Source: Streptomyces sp. 6-11-2 (lineage in GTDB: Bacteria; Actinomycetota; Actinomycetes; Streptomycetales; Streptomycetaceae). From it: a DNA stretch of 64,000 nucleotides. Positions 16,168-60,987 of the stretch are shown here, in pieces. The first letter of the stretch is position 1; the number at the start of each line of letters is the position of its first letter. The stretch lies in the NCBI RefSeq assembly GCF_006540305.1, contig NZ_BJOR01000001.1, positions 5,146,001 through 5,210,000 of the forward strand. Direction: 5' to 3'. The notes beneath the pieces are model-generated. The model ran no database searches, was not told the DNA's origin, and saw nothing but the letters and a program-made list of their open reading frames with translations. A program made the translations under genes and the position numbers.

Positions 16168-17658
16168 ATGACGGAACGACCCGCGCAGCGCACTCCCAAC
16201 CGCCAGCTCGCCGCGCTCATCGCAGAAGCGGGGTTCTCGAACGCGGGTCTGGCCCGTCGCGTCGACCAGCTCGGTCTCGAACACGGGCTGGACCTGAGAT
16301 ACGACAAGACGTCGGTCACCCGCTGGCTGCGCGGCCAGCAGCCGCGGGGCACCACGCCCGCCCTCATCGCGGAGGTGTTCACCCGGCGCCTGGGCCGCCG
16401 CCTGACCGCCCAGGACCTCGGCCTGGACGCCTGCGCCCCGGTGTACGCGGGGCTGGAGTTCGCCGCCACCCCGGAGGAGGCCGTCGACATCGTCGGCGGG
16501 CTGTGGCGCAAGGACTGCGGCAGCCACGCCGAACTGCGCAGGATCGCCTTCACCCCGGCGGGCCTCGTCGTGCCCAGCCGGGACTGGCTGATCGGGCGGG
16601 CCGACGACCGGGTCGCCCGCGCGGAGGCACCGGCCACCCGGGTCCCCGTCCAGGGGTACCCGGACCGGCCCGCCCTCGTCGTGCCCGACCCCTCGGTGCC
16701 CGGCGTGCCCCGGCAGCGCGGCCGGGCCGAACGGGGCCCGGCCGGACGGGAGGCGGGCCGGAAGGTCACCGCCGGCGACATCGCCGCCCTGCGCTCGGTC
16801 GGCGAGCTGTTCCGCACCCTCGACGACCTGTACGGCGGCGGCCATGCCCGCCAGGCCCTGGTGCGCTACCTGGAGCACGAGTGCGAGCCGATGCTGCGCG
16901 GCACCTACGGCGAGCAGACCGGCCGCCGGCTCTTCGGCGCCGCCGCCGACCTGACCCGGCTCGCCGGCTGGACGTCGTACGACATCGCCGCGCACGGGCT
17001 CGCCCAGCGCTACTTCGTGCAGGCGCTGCGGCTCGCCCAGGCCGCCGGGGACCGGCCCTACGGCGCCTATGTGCTGGTCACCATGAGCCGGCAGGCCGTC
17101 TACCTCGGACACGGGCGGGAGGCCGTGCAGCTCGCACGGGTGGCCCAGCAGGGGCTCGGCGGCTCCGCCCCGCCCGCCGTGCAGTCGCTGCTGCACGCCG
17201 CCGAGGCGCGCGGGCACGGGGTGCTGGGCGAGGTGCGCGCCTGCACCGCGTCCCTGGTGCGCGCCGAGCGCTTCCTGGAGGCGGCCCGGCCCGGGGACGA
17301 GGTGCCCTCCTGGGCGCGCTTCGACGAGGCGCAGCTGGCCGACGAGTCCGGGCACTGCCACCGGGACCTCCAGCAGTACCGGGCCGCCGCGCAGCACGCC
17401 GAACGCGCCTTGCGGCTGCGCGCCCCGGCGCACGCCCGCAGCCGGCTGTTCTGCCGGGTGGTCCTGGCCACCGCCCGCCTCGGCCTCGGCGACCTGGACC
17501 AGGCCTGCCGCCTGGCCGCCGAGGCGGCGGCCCAGGCCGCGGACATGCGCTCGGTCCGGGCGGTGGAGTACGTCAAGGACTTCGAACGCCGCCTGGAACC
17601 GTACAAGGACGCGACACCCGTACGCGGCTACCGGGACAAGGTGGCGGCGTTGGGTTGA
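16168..17658 (+). CDS. Helix-turn-helix and TPR-like transcriptional regulator (NsdA-like)
   Basis: 496 residues. The N-terminal 70 residues form an XRE-like module (LIAEAGFSNAGLARRVDQLG, TSVTRWLRGQQPRG), followed by a long alpha-helical, Ala/Leu/Arg-rich region with repeated helices compatible with TPR units (about 220-480). This architecture is that of the Streptomyces NsdA/NsdB group, which includes repressors of development and antibiotic synthesis. The ATG at 16168 begins the conserved N-terminus (MTERPAQRTPNRQL). The last codons before the stop at 17658 are the apparent founder sequence of the adjoining repeat array. Target genes unknown. Confidence 0.82.
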   Translation: MTERPAQRTPNRQLAALIAEAGFSNAGLARRVDQLGLEHGLDLRYDKTSVTRWLRGQQPRGTTPALIAEVFTRRLGRRLTAQDLGLDACAPVYAGLEFAATPEEAVDIVGGLWRKDCGSHAELRRIAFTPAGLVVPSRDWLIGRADDRVARAEAPATRVPVQGYPDRPALVVPDPSVPGVPRQRGRAERGPAGREAGRKVTAGDIAALRSVGELFRTLDDLYGGGHARQALVRYLEHECEPMLRGTYGEQTGRRLFGAAADLTRLAGWTSYDIAAHGLAQRYFVQALRLAQAAGDRPYGAYVLVTMSRQAVYLGHGREAVQLARVAQQGLGGSAPPAVQSLLHAAEARGHGVLGEVRACTASLVRAERFLEAARPGDEVPSWARFDEAQLADESGHCHRDLQQYRAAAQHAERALRLRAPAHARSRLFCRVVLATARLGLGDLDQACRLAAEAAAQAADMRSVRAVEYVKDFERRLEPYKDATPVRGYRDKVAALG

Positions 17659-17659
17659 G

Positions 17660-18150
17660 CCCTTGGGACGGGGCGGCGGCGCCAGGGCGAGTCCTGGGAC
17701 GGCGCGGCGGTGCCGGGCCGGGTCCCCGAGGCAAGGTCAGTGGCGTCGGGCCGGGTCCCCGGGCAAGGTGGCGGCGTTGGGCTGAGTCCCTGGGACGGGG
17801 CGGCGGTGCCGGGCCGAGTCCCGGGATGCGGCGCGCGTGTTGGGTTGAGTCTCCGGGACGTGGTGACGGCGTTGGACTGAGTGTCGGCTACGAGGTGGTG
17901 GCGTCGGGCCGAGTCCCTGGGACAAGGGCGGCGTCGGGCTGAACCCCTGGGGCGAGGCGGCGGATTCGGGCTGAGTCCCGGGACGTGGCGCGTGCTGGGT
18001 TGAGTTCCGGGACGTGGCGGCGGCGTTGGGCAGAGTCCCGGGGCAAGGGCAGCGGCGTCGGGCCGGGTCCCCGGGGCAAGGTGGCGGTGTTGGGCCGAGG
18101 CCCGGGGCAACGGCGGTGGTGCCGGGGCAAGTTCCGGGACGGGGGTGGCG
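17660..18150. repeat. Degenerate minisatellite, about 15 units of roughly 32 bp
   Basis: The whole gap between two convergent genes is filled by imperfect tandem copies of a unit close to GCGTTGGGCTGAGTCCCTGG followed by GACGGGGCGGCG (27-34 bp). The 3' end of the upstream regulator gene, including its TGA, matches this unit, and 17768-17800 repeats it nearly exactly. The last unit touches the stop codon of the convergent FAD oxidoreductase gene. All frames are open only because of the repeat; I see no gene here. Confidence 0.85.
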
Positions 18151-18152
18151 GC

Positions 18153-19562
18153 TCAGGCGGCGGCTTTCGGTTCCGCCCGGTGCATCGGGCGGCCGGCTCC
18201 CAGGTCGCCCAGGATCGCCGCGGCGGCCCGGTGGGCCGAGTGCAGCGCCCCCTGGACGGTACTGGTGTCCCGGTGGTCGCCGCACACGTACAGGCCCGCC
18301 AGCAGCCGCACCGGGCGCCGTGGGTCGTGCGGGGGGCGCATCGCGGGGACGGCCTCGGGGGTGTGGTGCACGGCGAGCGTCTCCCAGCGGGCGGTGGAGG
18401 TGCCGTAGAGGCGGGACAGATGGCGGCGTACGGCCGTGTCGACGTCGGCCGGGGGCACGCCCAGGACCGTCGACGACACCAGAGCGCGGCCGGCGGGCGC
18501 GCGGGAGGGGTCGACGCGGCTGACCACCGCCGTGTGCGCCACCGGGCCGCCGCGCTCCGCGTCGAGCAGCAGGTACCCGCCCGTCTCCGGGGGCTCGTCG
18601 GTCGTGTGGTGGACCACCGTCACCGGGTGGAAGTCCGGTACGCGCAGCCCGGGCAGCAGCTCGGCGGCGGCACGCGCGTCGGTGGCGACCAGCACGGCCT
18701 TGCAGCGGACCTCGCCGTGCTCGGCGGTGGTCACCGAGGTCGTGGAGACCGAGGTGGCCCGTACGCCGGTGTGCACGGTGCCGGGCGGCAGCGTGCGCGC
18801 GAGCAGCTCCGGCAGGACCTCGGCGCCGCCCTCCGGCAGACACAGCCGGCCGGAGGCGAAGGAGTGCAGGGCCAGGTCCGCGCAGCGGCTGGACGTGGTG
18901 AGGTCCGGGTCGCACAACAGGGCGGCGAGCAGCGGACGCAGGAAGCCGTCGACCGTGCGGGCGGGCAGGCCGCGGGCGGCCAGCGCCTGCTGGGCCGTCA
19001 ACTCGGGCCGCGACAGCAGGCGTTCGACCGGCGTGGCGGCGATCCGGCCGAGCGCGGCGCGCAGCCGCAGCGGCGCGCCGACCCCGCGGCGTCCGGGCGG
19101 CGGACCGTCGAGGAACGGCACGGCGGACGACCGGGGAACGGACGGCCGGGAGAGGGACGCACGGGCGAGGGACGACGGCCGGGGGACCGGCGGGCGGGGG
19201 GCGCTCGCCAGGGCGCGCACTACGTGAAGTGCGCTCCTCGCGCTCCCTCCGTGCGCCGGAGCGCCCGCGCGGAGGTGCCGTCCGTCGCTGTGCAGCAGGA
19301 CCCCCGGCGCGAAGGGACGCAGCACGAGCGCGTCGAGCCCCGGGCTCAGGGCCAGTTGGGGGTACGACGTGTTCAGCAGCTGTCCGATCCGGTCGAGCCG
19401 GAACCCGTCGACCTTCTCCGTCGACATGCGGCCGCCCGCGTAAGGGGCGGCCTCCAGGACCGCGGTCGTCACTCCTGCACTGGTCAGTCGATGCGCTGCC
19501 GCGAGCCCGGCGACCCCGGCTCCCACAACGACGACGTCCGCCTGATACGCGGGCTCAAGCAC
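18153..19562 (-). CDS. FAD-dependent oxidoreductase (amine oxidase/phytoene desaturase-like)
   Basis: 469 residues. The dinucleotide-binding motif GAGVAGLAAAHRL is at 14-26, EAAPYAGGRMSTE follows at the usual FAD position, and the C-terminal GLYVCGDHRDTSTVQGALHSA matches the FAD-contacting GD motif of flavin amine oxidases and desaturases. A Ser/Pro/Arg-rich segment (about 120-160) interrupts the fold and looks like a lineage insertion. The GTG start has GAGGAGG immediately upstream. No pathway genes are adjacent, so the substrate is unknown. Confidence 0.85.
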   Translation of the reverse strand: MLEPAYQADVVVVGAGVAGLAAAHRLTSAGVTTAVLEAAPYAGGRMSTEKVDGFRLDRIGQLLNTSYPQLALSPGLDALVLRPFAPGVLLHSDGRHLRAGAPAHGGSARSALHVVRALASAPRPPVPRPSSLARASLSRPSVPRSSAVPFLDGPPPGRRGVGAPLRLRAALGRIAATPVERLLSRPELTAQQALAARGLPARTVDGFLRPLLAALLCDPDLTTSSRCADLALHSFASGRLCLPEGGAEVLPELLARTLPPGTVHTGVRATSVSTTSVTTAEHGEVRCKAVLVATDARAAAELLPGLRVPDFHPVTVVHHTTDEPPETGGYLLLDAERGGPVAHTAVVSRVDPSRAPAGRALVSSTVLGVPPADVDTAVRRHLSRLYGTSTARWETLAVHHTPEAVPAMRPPHDPRRPVRLLAGLYVCGDHRDTSTVQGALHSAHRAAAAILGDLGAGRPMHRAEPKAAA

Positions 19563-43812: not shown

Positions 43813-44892
43813 TCACTGCTCGCCCAGCGTCACGTCCACCGTCTTCTGGCTGCCGTCACGCGAGAACGTCACCGTGGTCCGCTGGCCCGGCCGGTCGGCG
43901 GCGAGCGCCTCCGACAGCGAGGTGATGGTGGTGATGTCCTGGCCGCCGACCTTGGTGATGATGTCTCCGGACCGGATCCCCGCGCGTGCCGCGGCCCCGC
44001 CGGCCTTCACGTCCACCACCGCGACCCCGGCGGGCTCGTAGTCCATGCCGACGACGGTGCGTCCGGTGATGTCGAGCGCGGCCCGGCCGGAGTTGACGAC
44101 CTTGCCGTACCGCACGATCTGCCCGGCGATCGTCTTCACCGTCGACGCCGGGATCGCGAAGCCGATGCCGGGCGCCGCGCTGCCCCCGAGCTGCGGGTCG
44201 GCGGCGGCGAGTGTCGGGATTCCGATGACCTGACCGTTCAGGTTCACCAGCGCGCCCCCGCTGTTGCCCGGGTTGATCGCGGCCGACGTCTGCACCATGC
44301 CGGCGATCGTGGCCCCCGTGCCGCCGTCGCTCCCCTCGCTGACGGTGCGGCCGGTCGCCGACACGATCCCCTGGGTCACGCTCGACGACAGCCCCAGCGG
44401 CGAACCCATGGCCAGGACGATCTGCCCGACCTCGACCTTCCCCGACTCGCCGAAGGTGGCCGCCTTCAGCCCGTGCGGCACCTTGCCCAGCTTGACGACG
44501 GCGAGGTCCTGGTCCGGGTACGAGGAGACCAGGGTGGCGGTGAGCGACGTCTCGCTGTTGGCCGTGGTCACGCTGAACGTCTTCCCGGTCCCGACGACGT
44601 GCGCGTTGGTGACGATGTGCCCCTTGTCGTCGTACACGACCCCGGACCCCAGCTGGTTGCCGGACTGGATCTGCACGACCGACGGCAGTGCCTCCTTGAT
44701 CACCCGCATGTAGTCGCTCTGCAGGTCGTTCGCCGAGGCCGCGGCGGGCCGACGGGCGCCGACGGGGTCCTTGGACGTGCCGGCCGTCGCCTGCGGCTCG
44801 GCCACACCGTGGCACCCGGACAGCACCGCGACGCAGCCGACGAGGGCGACCAGCAGAACGACCGGCCGCGGACCACGGAAGAAGACATCCAT
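43813..44892 (-). CDS. HtrA/DegP-like serine protease with PDZ domain, lipoprotein
   Basis: 359 residues. The N-terminus MDVFFRGPRPVVLLVALVG and lipobox LSGC (Cys27) indicate export and lipid anchoring. Trypsin-like domain: His98 (TNAHVV), Asp129 (PDQDLAVVKLG), Ser211 (NPGNSGGAL). A PDZ domain spans about 265-355 (AGVAVVDVKAGGAAARAGIRSGDIITKVGG). It degrades or processes misfolded exported proteins. The ATG at 44892 gives the natural signal peptide; upstream in-frame codons fall in repeat-like DNA. Confidence 0.92.
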   Translation of the reverse strand: MDVFFRGPRPVVLLVALVGCVAVLSGCHGVAEPQATAGTSKDPVGARRPAAASANDLQSDYMRVIKEALPSVVQIQSGNQLGSGVVYDDKGHIVTNAHVVGTGKTFSVTTANSETSLTATLVSSYPDQDLAVVKLGKVPHGLKAATFGESGKVEVGQIVLAMGSPLGLSSSVTQGIVSATGRTVSEGSDGGTGATIAGMVQTSAAINPGNSGGALVNLNGQVIGIPTLAAADPQLGGSAAPGIGFAIPASTVKTIAGQIVRYGKVVNSGRAALDITGRTVVGMDYEPAGVAVVDVKAGGAAARAGIRSGDIITKVGGQDITTITSLSEALAADRPGQRTTVTFSRDGSQKTVDVTLGEQ

Positions 44893-44964
44893 ACCCCGAG
44901 TCTCTCCGCACGCCACGCCCCCGGCTTCCGCTGCTCCCCCGAACGAGCGGCGATCACTGCCCCC

Positions 44965-45145
44965 CGACGGCACACCTCGCAGGTCCACGACCGGTGGCCG
45001 ACGGCGCGCCCCGCACGGGTGCACGGGTCTCCAGCGGCCTTCCCCCACGGGTGTGACCGATGGTCGGCTGCGCCCTCGCACGAGTGCGACTGGTCGTCAG
45101 CGGCGCTCCCCGTGCAGGGCCGGCTGGTCGTCAGCGGTGCCTAGC
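44965..45145. repeat. Left part of a 34-bp degenerate tandem array interrupted by an IS
   Basis: About four to five units of the form CTGGTCGTCAGCGGCGC-CCCCGCACGGGTGCGA, continuous in sequence with the array at 46204-46852 once the insertion and one target copy are removed. Confidence 0.8.
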
Positions 45146-46097
45146 TGTATTGACCCGGAGCGTTGTTGACGCGGCTGATCGGTGGGTGGCCGCCGAGTGC
45201 GGTGTGGCAGCGGTGGTGGTTGTAGGTGTGGAGGAAGTCTGCCAGGGCTTCGGTTCGCTCGCGGTTGCTGGTGTAGGGCCGCAGGTAGGCCCATTCGTCG
45301 AGCAGGGTGCGGTTGAAGCGTTCGACCTTGCCGTTGGTCTGCGGCCGGTAGACGCGTGTGTGTTTGCCGGCCGCGCCCAGGTCGGCAAGTGCCTGTCGCC
45401 AGGCGAAGCTCTTGCGGTAGGGCCAAGCGTTGTCGGTCAGAACCCGTTCGATGCGGGTCATGCCGTGGGCGTGGAAGAACGCGGCTGCGCGGGTGAGGAA
45501 GGCGGCGCAGGTGGCGGCCTTTTCGTCCGGGTGGATCTCGCTGTAGGCCAGGCGGCTGTGGTCGTCGACGGCGGAGTGGACGTAGTCGTAGCCCATGCTG
45601 TTGCGGGTGGTGCGGCCGGCCTGGCGGCCCAGCACCCTGTGACCGCCGCCGTCGGGGATTCGGCCGAGTTTCTTGACGTCGACATGGAGCAGCTCGCCGG
45701 GTCGGTCGCGTTCATAGCGGCGGATGACCTGGCCGGTGGGCCGGTCCAGGAAGGCGAGTCGGTTCAGGCCGTGCCGGGTCAGGATGCGGTGCACGGTGGA
45801 GGCGGGCATGCCCAGGATCGGTCCGATGCGTGCCGGGCCCAGCTTGCGATCCCGCCGCAGCCTGCAGACGGCCGCCTCGGTGGTGGCTGCGGTCCGGTGT
45901 GGTGTCCTGCGGGGACGACTGGAGCGGTCGAGGAGTCCGCTCTCGCCCTCGGACCGCCAGCGCCGGATCCACTTGTGGGCGGTGGGGCGGGAGACACCCA
46001 TCTCCGCAGCGACGTGGGCGACAGGACGGCCGGAACGGACACGTTCGACGAGCAGCCGCCTGCCGTGAACAGTCAGCCGGGCATTACGGTGGGACAC
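45141..46097 (-). CDS. IS481-family transposase; stop codon supplied by the target site
   Basis: 318 residues from a GTG at 46097. The N-terminal helix-turn-helix (LLVERVRSGRPVAHVAAEMGVSRPTAHKWIRRW) and the rve integrase core (LHVDVKKLG, SAVDDHSRLAYSEIH, NDNAW-type TDNAWPYRKS, RPQTNGKVERFNRTLLDEW) carry the DDE residues. The C-terminal family ending YNHHRCHTALGGHPPISRVNN is intact. The frame has no stop inside the element; TAG is provided by the duplicated target CCTAGC. The element looks complete and potentially active. Confidence 0.93.
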   Translation of the reverse strand: MSHRNARLTVHGRRLLVERVRSGRPVAHVAAEMGVSRPTAHKWIRRWRSEGESGLLDRSSRPRRTPHRTAATTEAAVCRLRRDRKLGPARIGPILGMPASTVHRILTRHGLNRLAFLDRPTGQVIRRYERDRPGELLHVDVKKLGRIPDGGGHRVLGRQAGRTTRNSMGYDYVHSAVDDHSRLAYSEIHPDEKAATCAAFLTRAAAFFHAHGMTRIERVLTDNAWPYRKSFAWRQALADLGAAGKHTRVYRPQTNGKVERFNRTLLDEWAYLRPYTSNRERTEALADFLHTYNHHRCHTALGGHPPISRVNNAPGQYS

Positions 46098-46197
46098 GAA
46101 GGCCTCCGTGCGGTGAAGATTCGACACCTCCACCACACACGGAGGCCTTCGCCACGATCAAGACCAGATCGCGTTAACAACGCTCGTGGTCAATACA
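45146..46197 (-). mobile_element. Complete IS481-type insertion sequence, 1052 bp
   Basis: The ends are TGTATTGACC-CG-GAGCGTTG (45146 on) and, inverted, TGTATTGACC-AC-GAGCGTTG (ending 46197); the inverted repeats run about 28 bp with 3 mismatches. A 6-bp target duplication CCTAGC flanks it (45140-45145 and 46198-46203), matching the NCTAGN target described for IS481. It carries a single transposase gene and is inserted in a tandem-repeat array. Confidence 0.95.
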
Positions 46198-46203
46198 CCT
46201 AGC

Positions 46204-46852
46204 GCCCAGACGCGGCTGATCGTCAGCGCGTACCCCCTGCAGACGTGCGGCCGGTGGTCAGCAGCGCACCCCGTGCAGGTGCGGCGGGTCTGAGTGGCGC
46301 ACCTCGCACGGGTGCGCTCCCCGCGCGGCGGCTGGTGATCATGGCGCACACAGCTTCAGGTGCGACCGGCCGTCAGCGGCGCGCTTCGCACGGGTGCGGC
46401 CGGTCTCCAGCGGCGCCTTCCCGCACAGGCGCGGCTCGTCGTCGGCGGTGCACCTTGCACGGGTGCAGCCGGTTGCCGGTGGCACGCCCCCACACGGGTG
46501 CGGTGGTCGACAGCGACGTACCCGGCACGGTGGCTGGCGGTCAGGGCGCACCCGGTTCAGATGCGGCCTGTCTCCAGCGGCGCCCCCGCAAAGGCGCGGC
46601 TGATCGTCAGTGCATACCCCTGCACTCGTGCGGCTGGCGGTGACGGCGCGCCCCGTACAGGTGCAGCAGGTCCTCAGCGGTGCGCCTCGCACGGGTGCGG
46701 GCAGTCCTCGGCGGCACTCCCTGCACAGGCGCGGCCGGCCGGCGGCGGCGTACCCCATGCTCGTGCGGCCGGTGGTCAGCGGCGCGCCCCGTACAGGTGC
46801 CGCGGGTTCTCAGCGGCGTGCCGCCCCGCATGGCGGGCGGGTGGCTGTGGGG
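46204..46852. repeat. Right part of the 34-bp degenerate array, about 18 units
   Basis: Units of 29-36 bp such as CCGGTGGTCAGCGGCGCGCC followed by CCGTACAGGTGCGG run without interruption up to the stop of the methyltransferase gene. The last 28 bp of that gene (TCAGCCGCGTACGC then CGCACAGGTGCAGG on the plus strand) are themselves a unit, so the array appears to derive from the gene end. No gene is supportable within it. Confidence 0.88.
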
Positions 46853-46854
46853 TG

Positions 46855-47652
46855 TCAGCCGCGTACGCCGCACAGGTGCAGGAGGGCCGCCACCGCGCGG
46901 TAGGGGTCCGTCCGGCCGGCTCGTTCCTCGGCTGCCAGGAGTGTTTCCAGCGTCTCGGTGTCGGCCGGTGGCTCCGCGTCGTCGGCCGCCGTGTCCGTGA
47001 AGACGCGCACCCCGTACCAGGTCCGCAGCGGCGCCCCGATCCCCGCGAGCGTCGCCGTCAGGTGTGCGAGCCGGTCCGCCCGCACGTCCAGCCCCAGCCG
47101 GTTGCGGTACGCCGTCGTGTCGAACGCGGCCAGTGTCGTCGGCCACTCGCCGGACAGTCCCGGGCGCAGCGCCAGCGCGTCGCCGTTGCGTACCAGCAGC
47201 GACAGCAGACCGCCCGGCGCGAGCATCCGTGCCAGCCCCGCGAGCAGCGGGTCCGGCTCCTCGACGTACATCAGCACCCCGTGGCACAGCACCACGTCGA
47301 AACTGCCCGGCAGGAAGTGCACGCCGGTGTCCTGGCCGTCGCCCTCGACGATCCGCACCCGCGCCCGGATGCCCTCAGGCTCGGCGGCCAGCGCGGCACG
47401 GGCCACGGAGATCATCGTCTGGTCCCGTTCGAGCCCGGTGACCTGGTGCCCGGCCCGGGCCAGCCGCAGCGCCTGCGTGCCCTGGCCCATCCCCACGTCG
47501 AGCACCCGCAGCCGCTGCCCGACCGGGAACCGCGCGGCTATCTGCTCGTCGAGCTGCCGGGCCACCAGCTCCTGTCGTACGACATCACGCAGCCCACCCA
47601 GTTTGTTCAGCCAGGCGTCCGCGGCACCCTCGGAGAAAGCGGTCGCGCTCAG
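46855..47652 (-). CDS. SAM-dependent methyltransferase, probable CTG start
   Basis: 265 residues if read from a CTG at 47652. The core LRVLDVGMGQGTQALRLARAGHQVTGLERD is SAM motif I, with VRIVEGDGQD, FDVVLCHGVLMYVEEPDPLL and LLSLLVRNGD; it resembles CmoA/Methyltransf_11 enzymes. Upstream of the first conventional codon (GTG, 47565) the frame encodes SATAFSEGAADAWLNKLGG and then LRDVVRQELVARQL, which fits the family N-terminus. The CTG overlaps the TGA of the upstream DUF3043 gene as CTGA, like normal ATGA coupling. The substrate is unknown. Confidence 0.82.
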   Translation of the reverse strand: MSATAFSEGAADAWLNKLGGLRDVVRQELVARQLDEQIAARFPVGQRLRVLDVGMGQGTQALRLARAGHQVTGLERDQTMISVARAALAAEPEGIRARVRIVEGDGQDTGVHFLPGSFDVVLCHGVLMYVEEPDPLLAGLARMLAPGGLLSLLVRNGDALALRPGLSGEWPTTLAAFDTTAYRNRLGLDVRADRLAHLTATLAGIGAPLRTWYGVRVFTDTAADDAEPPADTETLETLLAAEERAGRTDPYRAVAALLHLCGVRG

Positions 47653-59485: not shown

Positions 59486-59631
59486 CGCATCGCTCCTTCG
59501 GCTGCGCAAGCGCTGCTCCCGTGACCCTGACCGGACCCTGACAAAGACGCGGGCCGGTGGGTCGTATCCCGTATCCCCCGGGAGGGGGACAGCGATGGGA
59601 CGTGACGGGGGAGCGCGCGGTTCCCTTCCGT

Positions 59632-59892
59632 ACGCCGATCGGGTCCCGGTTTCTGCGCCGGTCGGATCCCGGTCCGTACACCGGTCGGGTTCCGGTCCGT
59701 ACGCCGACCGGGTCCCGGACGGTGGAACGGCGACCCGGCGGGGCCCCGGGGGTTGGACCGGTGGCCCGGTCGTCCCGGAGGTTGGACGGCGGCCCGGTCG
59801 TTCCGGACAGTGGAGTGGTGGCCCCGGTCGTTCCGGACGGTGGAGTGGTGCCCCCGGTCGTCCCGGACGGTGGGGACGGTGACCCGGTCGGG
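59632..59892. repeat. Degenerate tandem array in a divergent promoter region, about 10 units of 22-31 bp
   Basis: Units such as CCCCGGTCGTTCCGGACGG followed by TGGAGTGGTG occupy half of the 527-bp gap (59486-60012) between two divergent genes. The units nearest the kinase gene are most alike. No gene is seen in the gap; the kinase promoter must lie in the 120 bp after the array. Confidence 0.8.
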
Positions 59893-60012: not shown

Positions 60013-60987
60013 GTGCGCATCGCAGTCACCGGCTCCATCGCCACCGACCACCTCATGACCTTCCCCGGCCGCTTCGCCGACCAGCTCGTCGCGGATCAGC
60101 TGCACACGGTCTCGCTCTCCTTCCTGGTCGACCAGCTGGACGTCCGGCGCGGCGGGGTCGGCGCCAACATCGCCTTCGGCATGGGCCAGCTCGGTACCAG
60201 GCCGGTCCTGGTGGGCGCCGCCGGACCCGACTTCGGCGAGTACCGGGCCTGGCTGGACCGGCACGGCGTCGACACCTCCTCGGTCCGAATCTCCGAGACC
60301 CTGCACACCGCCCGGTTCGTGTGCACCACCGACGCCGACCACAACCAGATCGGCTCCTTCTACACGGGCGCGATGAGCGAGGCCCGCCTCATCGAACTCA
60401 AGACCGTCGCCGACCGCGTCGGCGGTCTCGACCTGGTCCTGATCGGGGCGGACGACCCGGAGGCGATGCTCCGGCACACCGAGGAGTGCCGTTCGCGGGC
60501 CATCCCGTTCGCCGCCGACTTCTCCCAGCAGATCGCCCGGATGAACGGCGACGAGATCCGGATACTGCTGGACGGGGCGACGTACCTCTTCTCCAACGAG
60601 TACGAGAAGGGCCTCATCGAGTCCAAGACCGGCTGGGACGACGCCGAGATCCTCTCCCGGGTCGGCCACCGCGTCACCACCCTCGGCTCGCGCGGCGTGC
60701 GCATCGAGCGGGCCGGCGCGGACCCGGTCGAGGTCGGCTGCCCGGACGAGGAGCGCAAGGCCGACCCGACGGGCGTGGGCGACGCCTTCCGCGCCGGGTT
60801 CCTCTCCGGCCTCGCCTGGGGCGTCTCCCTGGAGCGCGCCGCCCAGGTCGGCTGCATGCTGGCCACCCTGGTGATCGAGACCGTGGGCACCCAGGAGTAC
60901 CAGCTGCGCCGGGCCCACTTCATGGAGCGCTTCACCAAGGCCTACGGCGACGACGCGGCCCGCGAGGTCCGCGCCCACCTCGCCTGA
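60013..60987 (+). CDS. PfkB-family carbohydrate/adenosine kinase (CbhK/AdoK-like)
   Basis: 324 residues. The PfkB fold: GSIATDHLMTFPGRF at the N-terminus, GGVGANIAFGMGQLG (PfkB motif 1), and the anion-hole/catalytic motif DPTGVGDAFRAGF with Asp257 as the base. The closest characterised relative by context is M. tuberculosis Rv2202c, an unusual adenosine kinase. The start ATG begins MRIAVTGSIATDH. The gene order erpA, Rv2203-like, kinase, ctaC equals the mycobacterial order. Confidence 0.92.
   Translation: MRIAVTGSIATDHLMTFPGRFADQLVADQLHTVSLSFLVDQLDVRRGGVGANIAFGMGQLGTRPVLVGAAGPDFGEYRAWLDRHGVDTSSVRISETLHTARFVCTTDADHNQIGSFYTGAMSEARLIELKTVADRVGGLDLVLIGADDPEAMLRHTEECRSRAIPFAADFSQQIARMNGDEIRILLDGATYLFSNEYEKGLIESKTGWDDAEILSRVGHRVTTLGSRGVRIERAGADPVEVGCPDEERKADPTGVGDAFRAGFLSGLAWGVSLERAAQVGCMLATLVIETVGTQEYQLRRAHFMERFTKAYGDDAAREVRAHLA

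Follow-up and report, generated by a model that had tools for sequence, protein, structure and literature searches.

The minus strand of Streptomyces sp. 6-11-2 carries tandem units of 34 bp between the stop codon of a methyltransferase (MT) gene and the start of the protease gene downstream of it, reaching down to about position 44925 of the window (the whole analysed stretch of 64,000 nucleotides, in whose numbering positions are given unless a contig coordinate is stated). The question raised by this locus is where such an array comes from, and whether it does anything. The original prediction was that the gene end had been duplicated outward repeatedly and that the result may act in transcription termination or as a recombination source. 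The MT locus was compared with its orthologues, of which the best 80 of 125 found were retained. The nearest relative among the loci found is Streptomyces sp. CB01373 (locus L064), with an MT protein 97% identical; records very near the studied genome may be left out of this set.

Results

Layout of the array

The coordinates of the features are presented in Table 1. The array is genuine. With the insertion sequence removed and the MT gene end excluded from the fitted span, a wraparound profile fit scored 611 bits, against a mean of 52 (sd 20, maximum 105.5) for 20 dinucleotide shuffles; each shuffle was given 8 rounds starting from a random seed, the real sequence 15 rounds. The predicted 34-bp array beside the MT stop is thus borne out. 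The fit produced 25 unit rows; further analysis used 22 of them, those that were complete or almost so, and the array may be described as having about two dozen units. The unit consensus on the coding strand is GCACCTGTGCGGGGTGCGCCGCTGACGACCGGCC. The mean identity of the 22 units is 80% to the consensus and 68% between units, and no unit column is invariant. TGA is the commonest triplet in the stop columns, yet it is present in 9 of the 22 units only, which corrects the expectation that most units keep a GCTGA-like core. The units are GC-rich and intergenic, with A making up 14% of the stretch. Since 34 is not divisible by 3, the array does not encode a simple repeat protein. The stretch adjoining the MT gene (about 46823-46854) is badly degenerate.

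Table 1. Features of the MT-protease locus and the second array (window positions).
Feature	Position	Strand	Remarks
HtrA-like serine protease gene, next downstream of MT	43813..44892	minus	Trypsin_2 + PDZ; start 44892
Array, gene-distal part	44925..45139	minus	6 more unit rows, final two poorly conserved
Target-site duplication CCTAGC, left copy	45140..45145		within a unit
Transposase reading frame of the IS481-family element	45141-46136	minus	LZ_Tnp_IS481 and rve_3 domains
IS481-family insertion sequence, 1,052 bp	45146-46197		terminal inverted repeats TGTATTGACC / GGTCAATACA
Target-site duplication CCTAGC, right copy	46198..46203		
Array, gene-proximal part	46204..46854	minus	19 unit rows from 46822 downward, first partial, last split by the insertion sequence
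MT gene, SAM-dependent	46855..47649	minus	Pfam Methyltransf_11, E 1.6e-20; start codon not settled
Second array, ~31-bp units	17631-18158		after stop 17656-17658 of a plus-strand gene ending 17658; unit-like last 24 bp

The span first proposed for the array (44965..46860) also takes in the insertion sequence, which had been missed; once this is discounted, only ~0.84 kb of that span is array. Tandem Repeats Finder (TRF), named beforehand as a check, finds the periods 34 and 68 with default settings, but only in fragments of the array. Composed of head-to-tail units within the range of 10-100 bp, the array has the layout of a minisatellite. It does not belong to a dispersed family of the MIRU type, as the own genome yields three matches, all within the array (40 of 157 candidates scored). 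The units are contiguous and degenerate and have no spacers, unlike CRISPR; at 80% identity to the consensus they also differ from Borg-type repeats, which are perfect and A-enriched.

The element at 45146-46197 has the IS481-type transposase, the inverted repeats and the target duplication, here of 6 bp, by which the IS481 family is recognized. Nothing unusual was noted about it, and it is a later passenger: as it sits inside a unit, the array predates the insertion. Six near-identical copies in the genome, five at full score and one slightly lower, indicate recent movement of the element. Another of these copies is located at contig 5138849-5139900, where the spacer measures 1162 bp here vs 104 bp in CB01373.

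Origin of the unit

The last 25 bp of the MT gene (46855-46879, with the stop TGA at 46855-46857) agree with the unit consensus at 22 positions. The CB01373 gene end agrees at 23 of 25 and those of other relatives at up to 24, the mean for the 80 orthologous loci being 21.2. As a background, the best match over 799,952 positions (400 kb of CB01373 from another region, both strands) was 20/25. At the CB01373 MT locus itself none of the other 19,536 positions examined equals the gene end, which has 23 matches against 17 for the next. The prediction had described the last 28 bp of the gene as a unit of the array. The gene end is indeed unit-like, stop included, but the match covers ~25 bp.

The C-terminal HLCGVRG and the stop are also conserved in orthologues with spacers too short for an array; hence the gene end is older, and copying ran from the gene to the array. 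The opposite direction, in which a pre-existing satellite overwrote the MT C-terminus, has the similarity itself and nothing else to recommend it. The same C-terminal DNA occurs in orthologues without the array, as the mean over the 80 loci demonstrates, and the chance that this explanation is right seems next to nil. The claim therefore holds in both its parts: the array derives from the gene end, and it is no unrelated satellite, the match exceeding the background. Dissimilarity between the units and the gene end, which had been listed in advance as an observation against this claim, was not found.

On the basis of these comparisons, the founder of the array is the last ~25 bp of the MT gene including the stop. 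For the 9 bp that complete the unit, no source could be traced. A founder comprising the whole unit, i.e. the gene end plus 9 bp of the 3' flank, was considered and rejected. CB01373 matches at 28 of 34 positions, 23 of them in the gene end and the other 5 among the 9 flank positions, and since its flank ranks only 26 of 75 for array similarity, the founder was reduced to 25 bp.

One seed and internal amplification

Column 20 separates the units from the gene ends. It is G in the own MT gene and in all 75 orthologues with the stop in register (the other 5 of the 80 lacked this and were left out), and in the 22 units it is C in 19, T in one, A in one and a gap in one, with no G. The shared derived C implies that the units descend from one copy changed from G to C. 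Repeated outward duplication, i.e. many independent copies, each taken straight from the gene end, would account for the 22 of 25 positions that the consensus shares with the gene end, but it conflicts with column 20 and with two further columns. In columns 13 and 16, G is found in 19 and 18 of the 22 units, respectively, as in CB01373, whereas the own MT gene has C and A. This part of the original prediction is contradicted, and we consider such independent copying very improbable. The same two columns suggest that the seed was probably made before the own MT gene gained C13 and A16.

Adjacent units have an identity of 0.664 (lag 1) vs 0.680 overall, so that proximity brings no greater similarity, and none of the lags reaches significance (p 0.086). 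This gives a near-star pattern, which points to amplification followed by independent decay. There is no sign of recent local homogenisation in the 22 units, and judging from their alignment they have diverged almost independently. A higher-order pattern of four units (ABCD), suspected by eye, was rejected (best lag mean, permutation p 0.086; lag 4, p 0.58). The differences among units (44925-46822) are rich in transitions, 97:50 vs 2036:2055 in spacers aligned between both species. Because the units share ancestry, this excess is a hint only, and it is unexplained.

Distribution in related genomes

The protease gene follows MT in 49 of the 80 orthologous loci, and in 40 of these 49 its start was estimated to lie 45-190 bp after MT. 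In CB01373 the protease ATG is 94 bp past the last MT sense codon, i.e. ~91 bp past the stop (the alignment estimate of the distance was 122). The array sequence is absent from the spacers read in 15 of the 80 loci and from 11 further close loci read 260 bp deep (among them L197, L198, L202 and L207 repeat known loci). With 40 of 157 candidates scored, it occurs at no second site in the own genome. The other 391 Streptomyces genomes, with two candidates scored per genome, yielded short weak matches only, the best being 48 bp long at 52.7 bits. An array of this kind beside a different gene, the second observation listed in advance as speaking against a gene-end origin, was thus not seen in these searches. 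Absence of the array elsewhere would accordingly apply to the scored candidates and the loci read. Between the species examined, with one genome per species, the array is either present or absent.

Two other loci have peculiarities of their own. Streptomyces sp. NRRL S-340 (L069; L198 is the same DNA) has an unrelated tandem array in the MT-protease spacer. At locus L021 the end of the local MT gene occurs a second time, as an independent copy ~34 bp past the stop. In a search of 23 loci this duplication was clear (score 21 vs 15 for the best of 200 shuffles), and a candidate in L017 was not supported (12 vs 14 in shuffles). In the set of 80 loci no gene-end duplication was clear, L075 being weak (15 vs 11 for the best of 20 shuffles).

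Age and divergence

The units differ from their consensus by 20%. At its fourfold sites, MT of the own genome differs by 15% in total from that of CB01373 and by ~22% from those of L065, L068 and L070, in none of which the array was seen; spacers have a median identity of 0.92 between the own genome and CB01373 (144 pairs). The divergence of the units thus exceeds the share expected for one lineage, so that either they diverged faster or the array is older and was repeatedly lost.

A second array in the window (Table 1) bears on this choice. The end of the adjoining gene finds a 22/24 match in that array vs at most 20/24 in 400 kb of CB01373. The array consensus, however, agrees with the gene end at no more than 19 of 24 positions, and its gene-end origin is therefore less firm than that of the main array. 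CB01373 carries the second array at the same gene end too; 8 other loci of that gene did not show it. Its units have an identity of 0.73 within a species and 0.65 between the species; compared in register, the two arrays are 0.715 identical vs 0.708 after shuffling. This second array speaks for faster turnover. Its presence in both species would also be accounted for if arrays had arisen there in parallel. Not every array is scrambled, as the shared array at contig 4853710 keeps an identity of 0.77 between the species vs 0.68 shuffled.

An array older than the CB01373 split, evolving at the normal rate and deleted in sister lineages, would suit the 20% divergence, and it gains from both the sharing of the second array and the conservation of the array at contig 4853710. 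It requires, however, separate losses in CB01373, L065, L066, L067, L068, L070 and L199, as the array was seen in none of them. The CB01373 spacer retains no detectable remnant (rank 26 of 75; shuffle p 0.17), and the second array has reached the shuffled level between species whose spacers keep the median of 0.92. We regard this older age as unlikely. It is conceivable, though doubtful, that a process in this lineage keeps making short 3'-flank arrays, sometimes seeded by gene ends, and makes or maintains them with raised substitution, some of them being scrambled within one species split in which spacers stay at ~92%.

Tests for function

The array could instead be a functional element setting the MT and protease genes apart, be it a series of intrinsic terminators, a structured RNA or a set of protein-binding sites. 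Its position at a gene 3' end is compatible with that, as is a short hairpin that can be drawn by hand in many units, with 73% of the cells paired vs 31-46% when the structure is slid. Against column shuffles, however, the advantage disappears: for 20 units plus the gene end, pairing is 73.2 vs 73.4% and covariation 0.117 vs 0.131. RNAalifold found no consensus structure of the units, and the fold of a 673-nt stretch equals that of its 20 shuffles (z -0.17). The sole terminator-like site found in the region falls in the insertion sequence, the hairpins with compensatory changes and the U tract that mark an intrinsic terminator array are not found in the units, and Rfam gave zero matches for the array. 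Moreover, relatives sharing the gene order were not seen to have the array, and none of its columns is invariant. Thus the suggested role in transcription termination finds no backing, a functional element of any of these kinds appears quite improbable, and a selected function for the array is unlikely in view of these negative tests.

Other arrays in the genome

In 2.0 Mb of the own genome we counted 66 intergenic array pieces (~65 arrays, the main array being counted twice), and in 0.4 Mb of CB01373, 11 pieces; the counts were made with our own simple gene caller and lenient TRF settings, and some entries are possibly missed coding repeats. Of 84 stop boundaries, 32 have an array within 20 bp, vs 15 of 69 start boundaries (Fisher p 0.035; the boundaries are not fully independent). 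An earlier count by eye with a poorer gene caller gave no clear bias, with stops and starts within 35 bp in 17 and 13 of 50 arrays, respectively.

Short-range duplication is commoner just past stops than ahead of starts (14/489 vs 4/752 at offset 12). Copies of gene ends scoring at least 18 were found for 7 of 1,230 3' ends and 3 of 1,515 5' ends, with 0 in one shuffle each, in a test where MT itself scores below 16. The poorer gene caller gave 5/755 and 1/798, with 0 and 1 in the shuffles. The idea that gene ends are a preferred birth site was rejected, as the frequency of duplication does not peak at the stop. It is in 3' flanks that arrays arise and persist, which is how gene ends become involved in them, and a special property of stop codons is not needed. 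Founders were sought in 15 of 17 spacers with a length change above 60 bp and were mostly not traceable.

Discussion

Taken together, the data make it quite likely that the array is a lineage-restricted minisatellite founded by a gene end, derived from one seed by internal amplification, since decayed, later entered by an IS481-family element and serving no selected function. In this scenario the last ~25 bp of MT, including the stop, were duplicated once into the spacer. The duplicate took the G to C change at column 20, as the shared derived base shows, and the array was amplified from it and not re-copied from the gene. Slipped-strand replication or unequal recombination among tandem copies may then have produced about two dozen units. 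Amplification was presumably tolerated as the spacer past the stop is weakly constrained and the MT gene stayed intact. The units have decayed almost independently since, and the IS481-family element entered one of them later. The array would have no selected function and would be one of a broad class of degenerate intergenic arrays preferring 3' flanks. In this soil bacterium it looks like a by-product of DNA copying and not a working part; the best reading is a fast-decaying 3'-flank minisatellite without evident function.

Several known systems resemble this array in part. The tandem repeats of archaeal Borg elements are perfect and A-enriched, about half of them lying in ORFs; they can begin in an ORF end and are thought to arise from local sequence (PMC9879509). 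The start at a gene end and the local origin are common to both, whereas the units here are ~20% diverged, GC-rich and intergenic and belong to a bacterial chromosome. The VNTR3239 / ETR-F locus of M. tuberculosis lies between rnc and fpg1 and starts 40 bp past the rnc stop; its units of 55 and 79 bp vary between strains, and a correlation of array length with fpg1 expression has been reported (PMC2734929). It is likewise an actinobacterial intergenic array in one lineage, the relatives having from a few to some tens of bp, but the unit here is derived from a gene end, which sets it apart from that locus.

The survey 'Satellites in the prokaryote world' reports unique satellites, among them 38 in Streptomyces coelicolor, i.e. 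4.2 per Mb (PMC6749651). Our arrays are similarly unrelated, confined to single loci and scattered through the genome. Other criteria were used in that survey, whereas the 66 pieces in 2.0 Mb counted here include degenerate arrays, and for the MT array a coding founder can be named. It joins the known unique prokaryote satellites as one whose coding founder is identified. No description of gene-end-seeded arrays in Streptomyces was found in the open-access literature searched.

It is seldom possible to name the sequence from which a bacterial minisatellite was founded, as the 15 other expanded spacers, mostly untraceable, illustrate. Here it is a conserved coding end, and therefore the direction of copying, the number of seedings and the relative timing can be read from single columns. 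The genome-wide set of 3'-flank arrays in this lineage could be used to measure the birth and decay of tandem repeats in actinobacteria. If the raised divergence is true, it poses a question about mutation processes; otherwise this is an ordinary neutral satellite.

Arrays of ~3-5 units beginning at or across a stop codon were also observed near contig positions ~3779475, 2327185, 3943530, 2206257 and 5073973, one of them with a 34-bp unit. The first two have nearly identical units and therefore look young. A third array within the window, with units of 23 and 30 bp, occupies positions 59627-59890 in the spacer before the reading frame near 60015.
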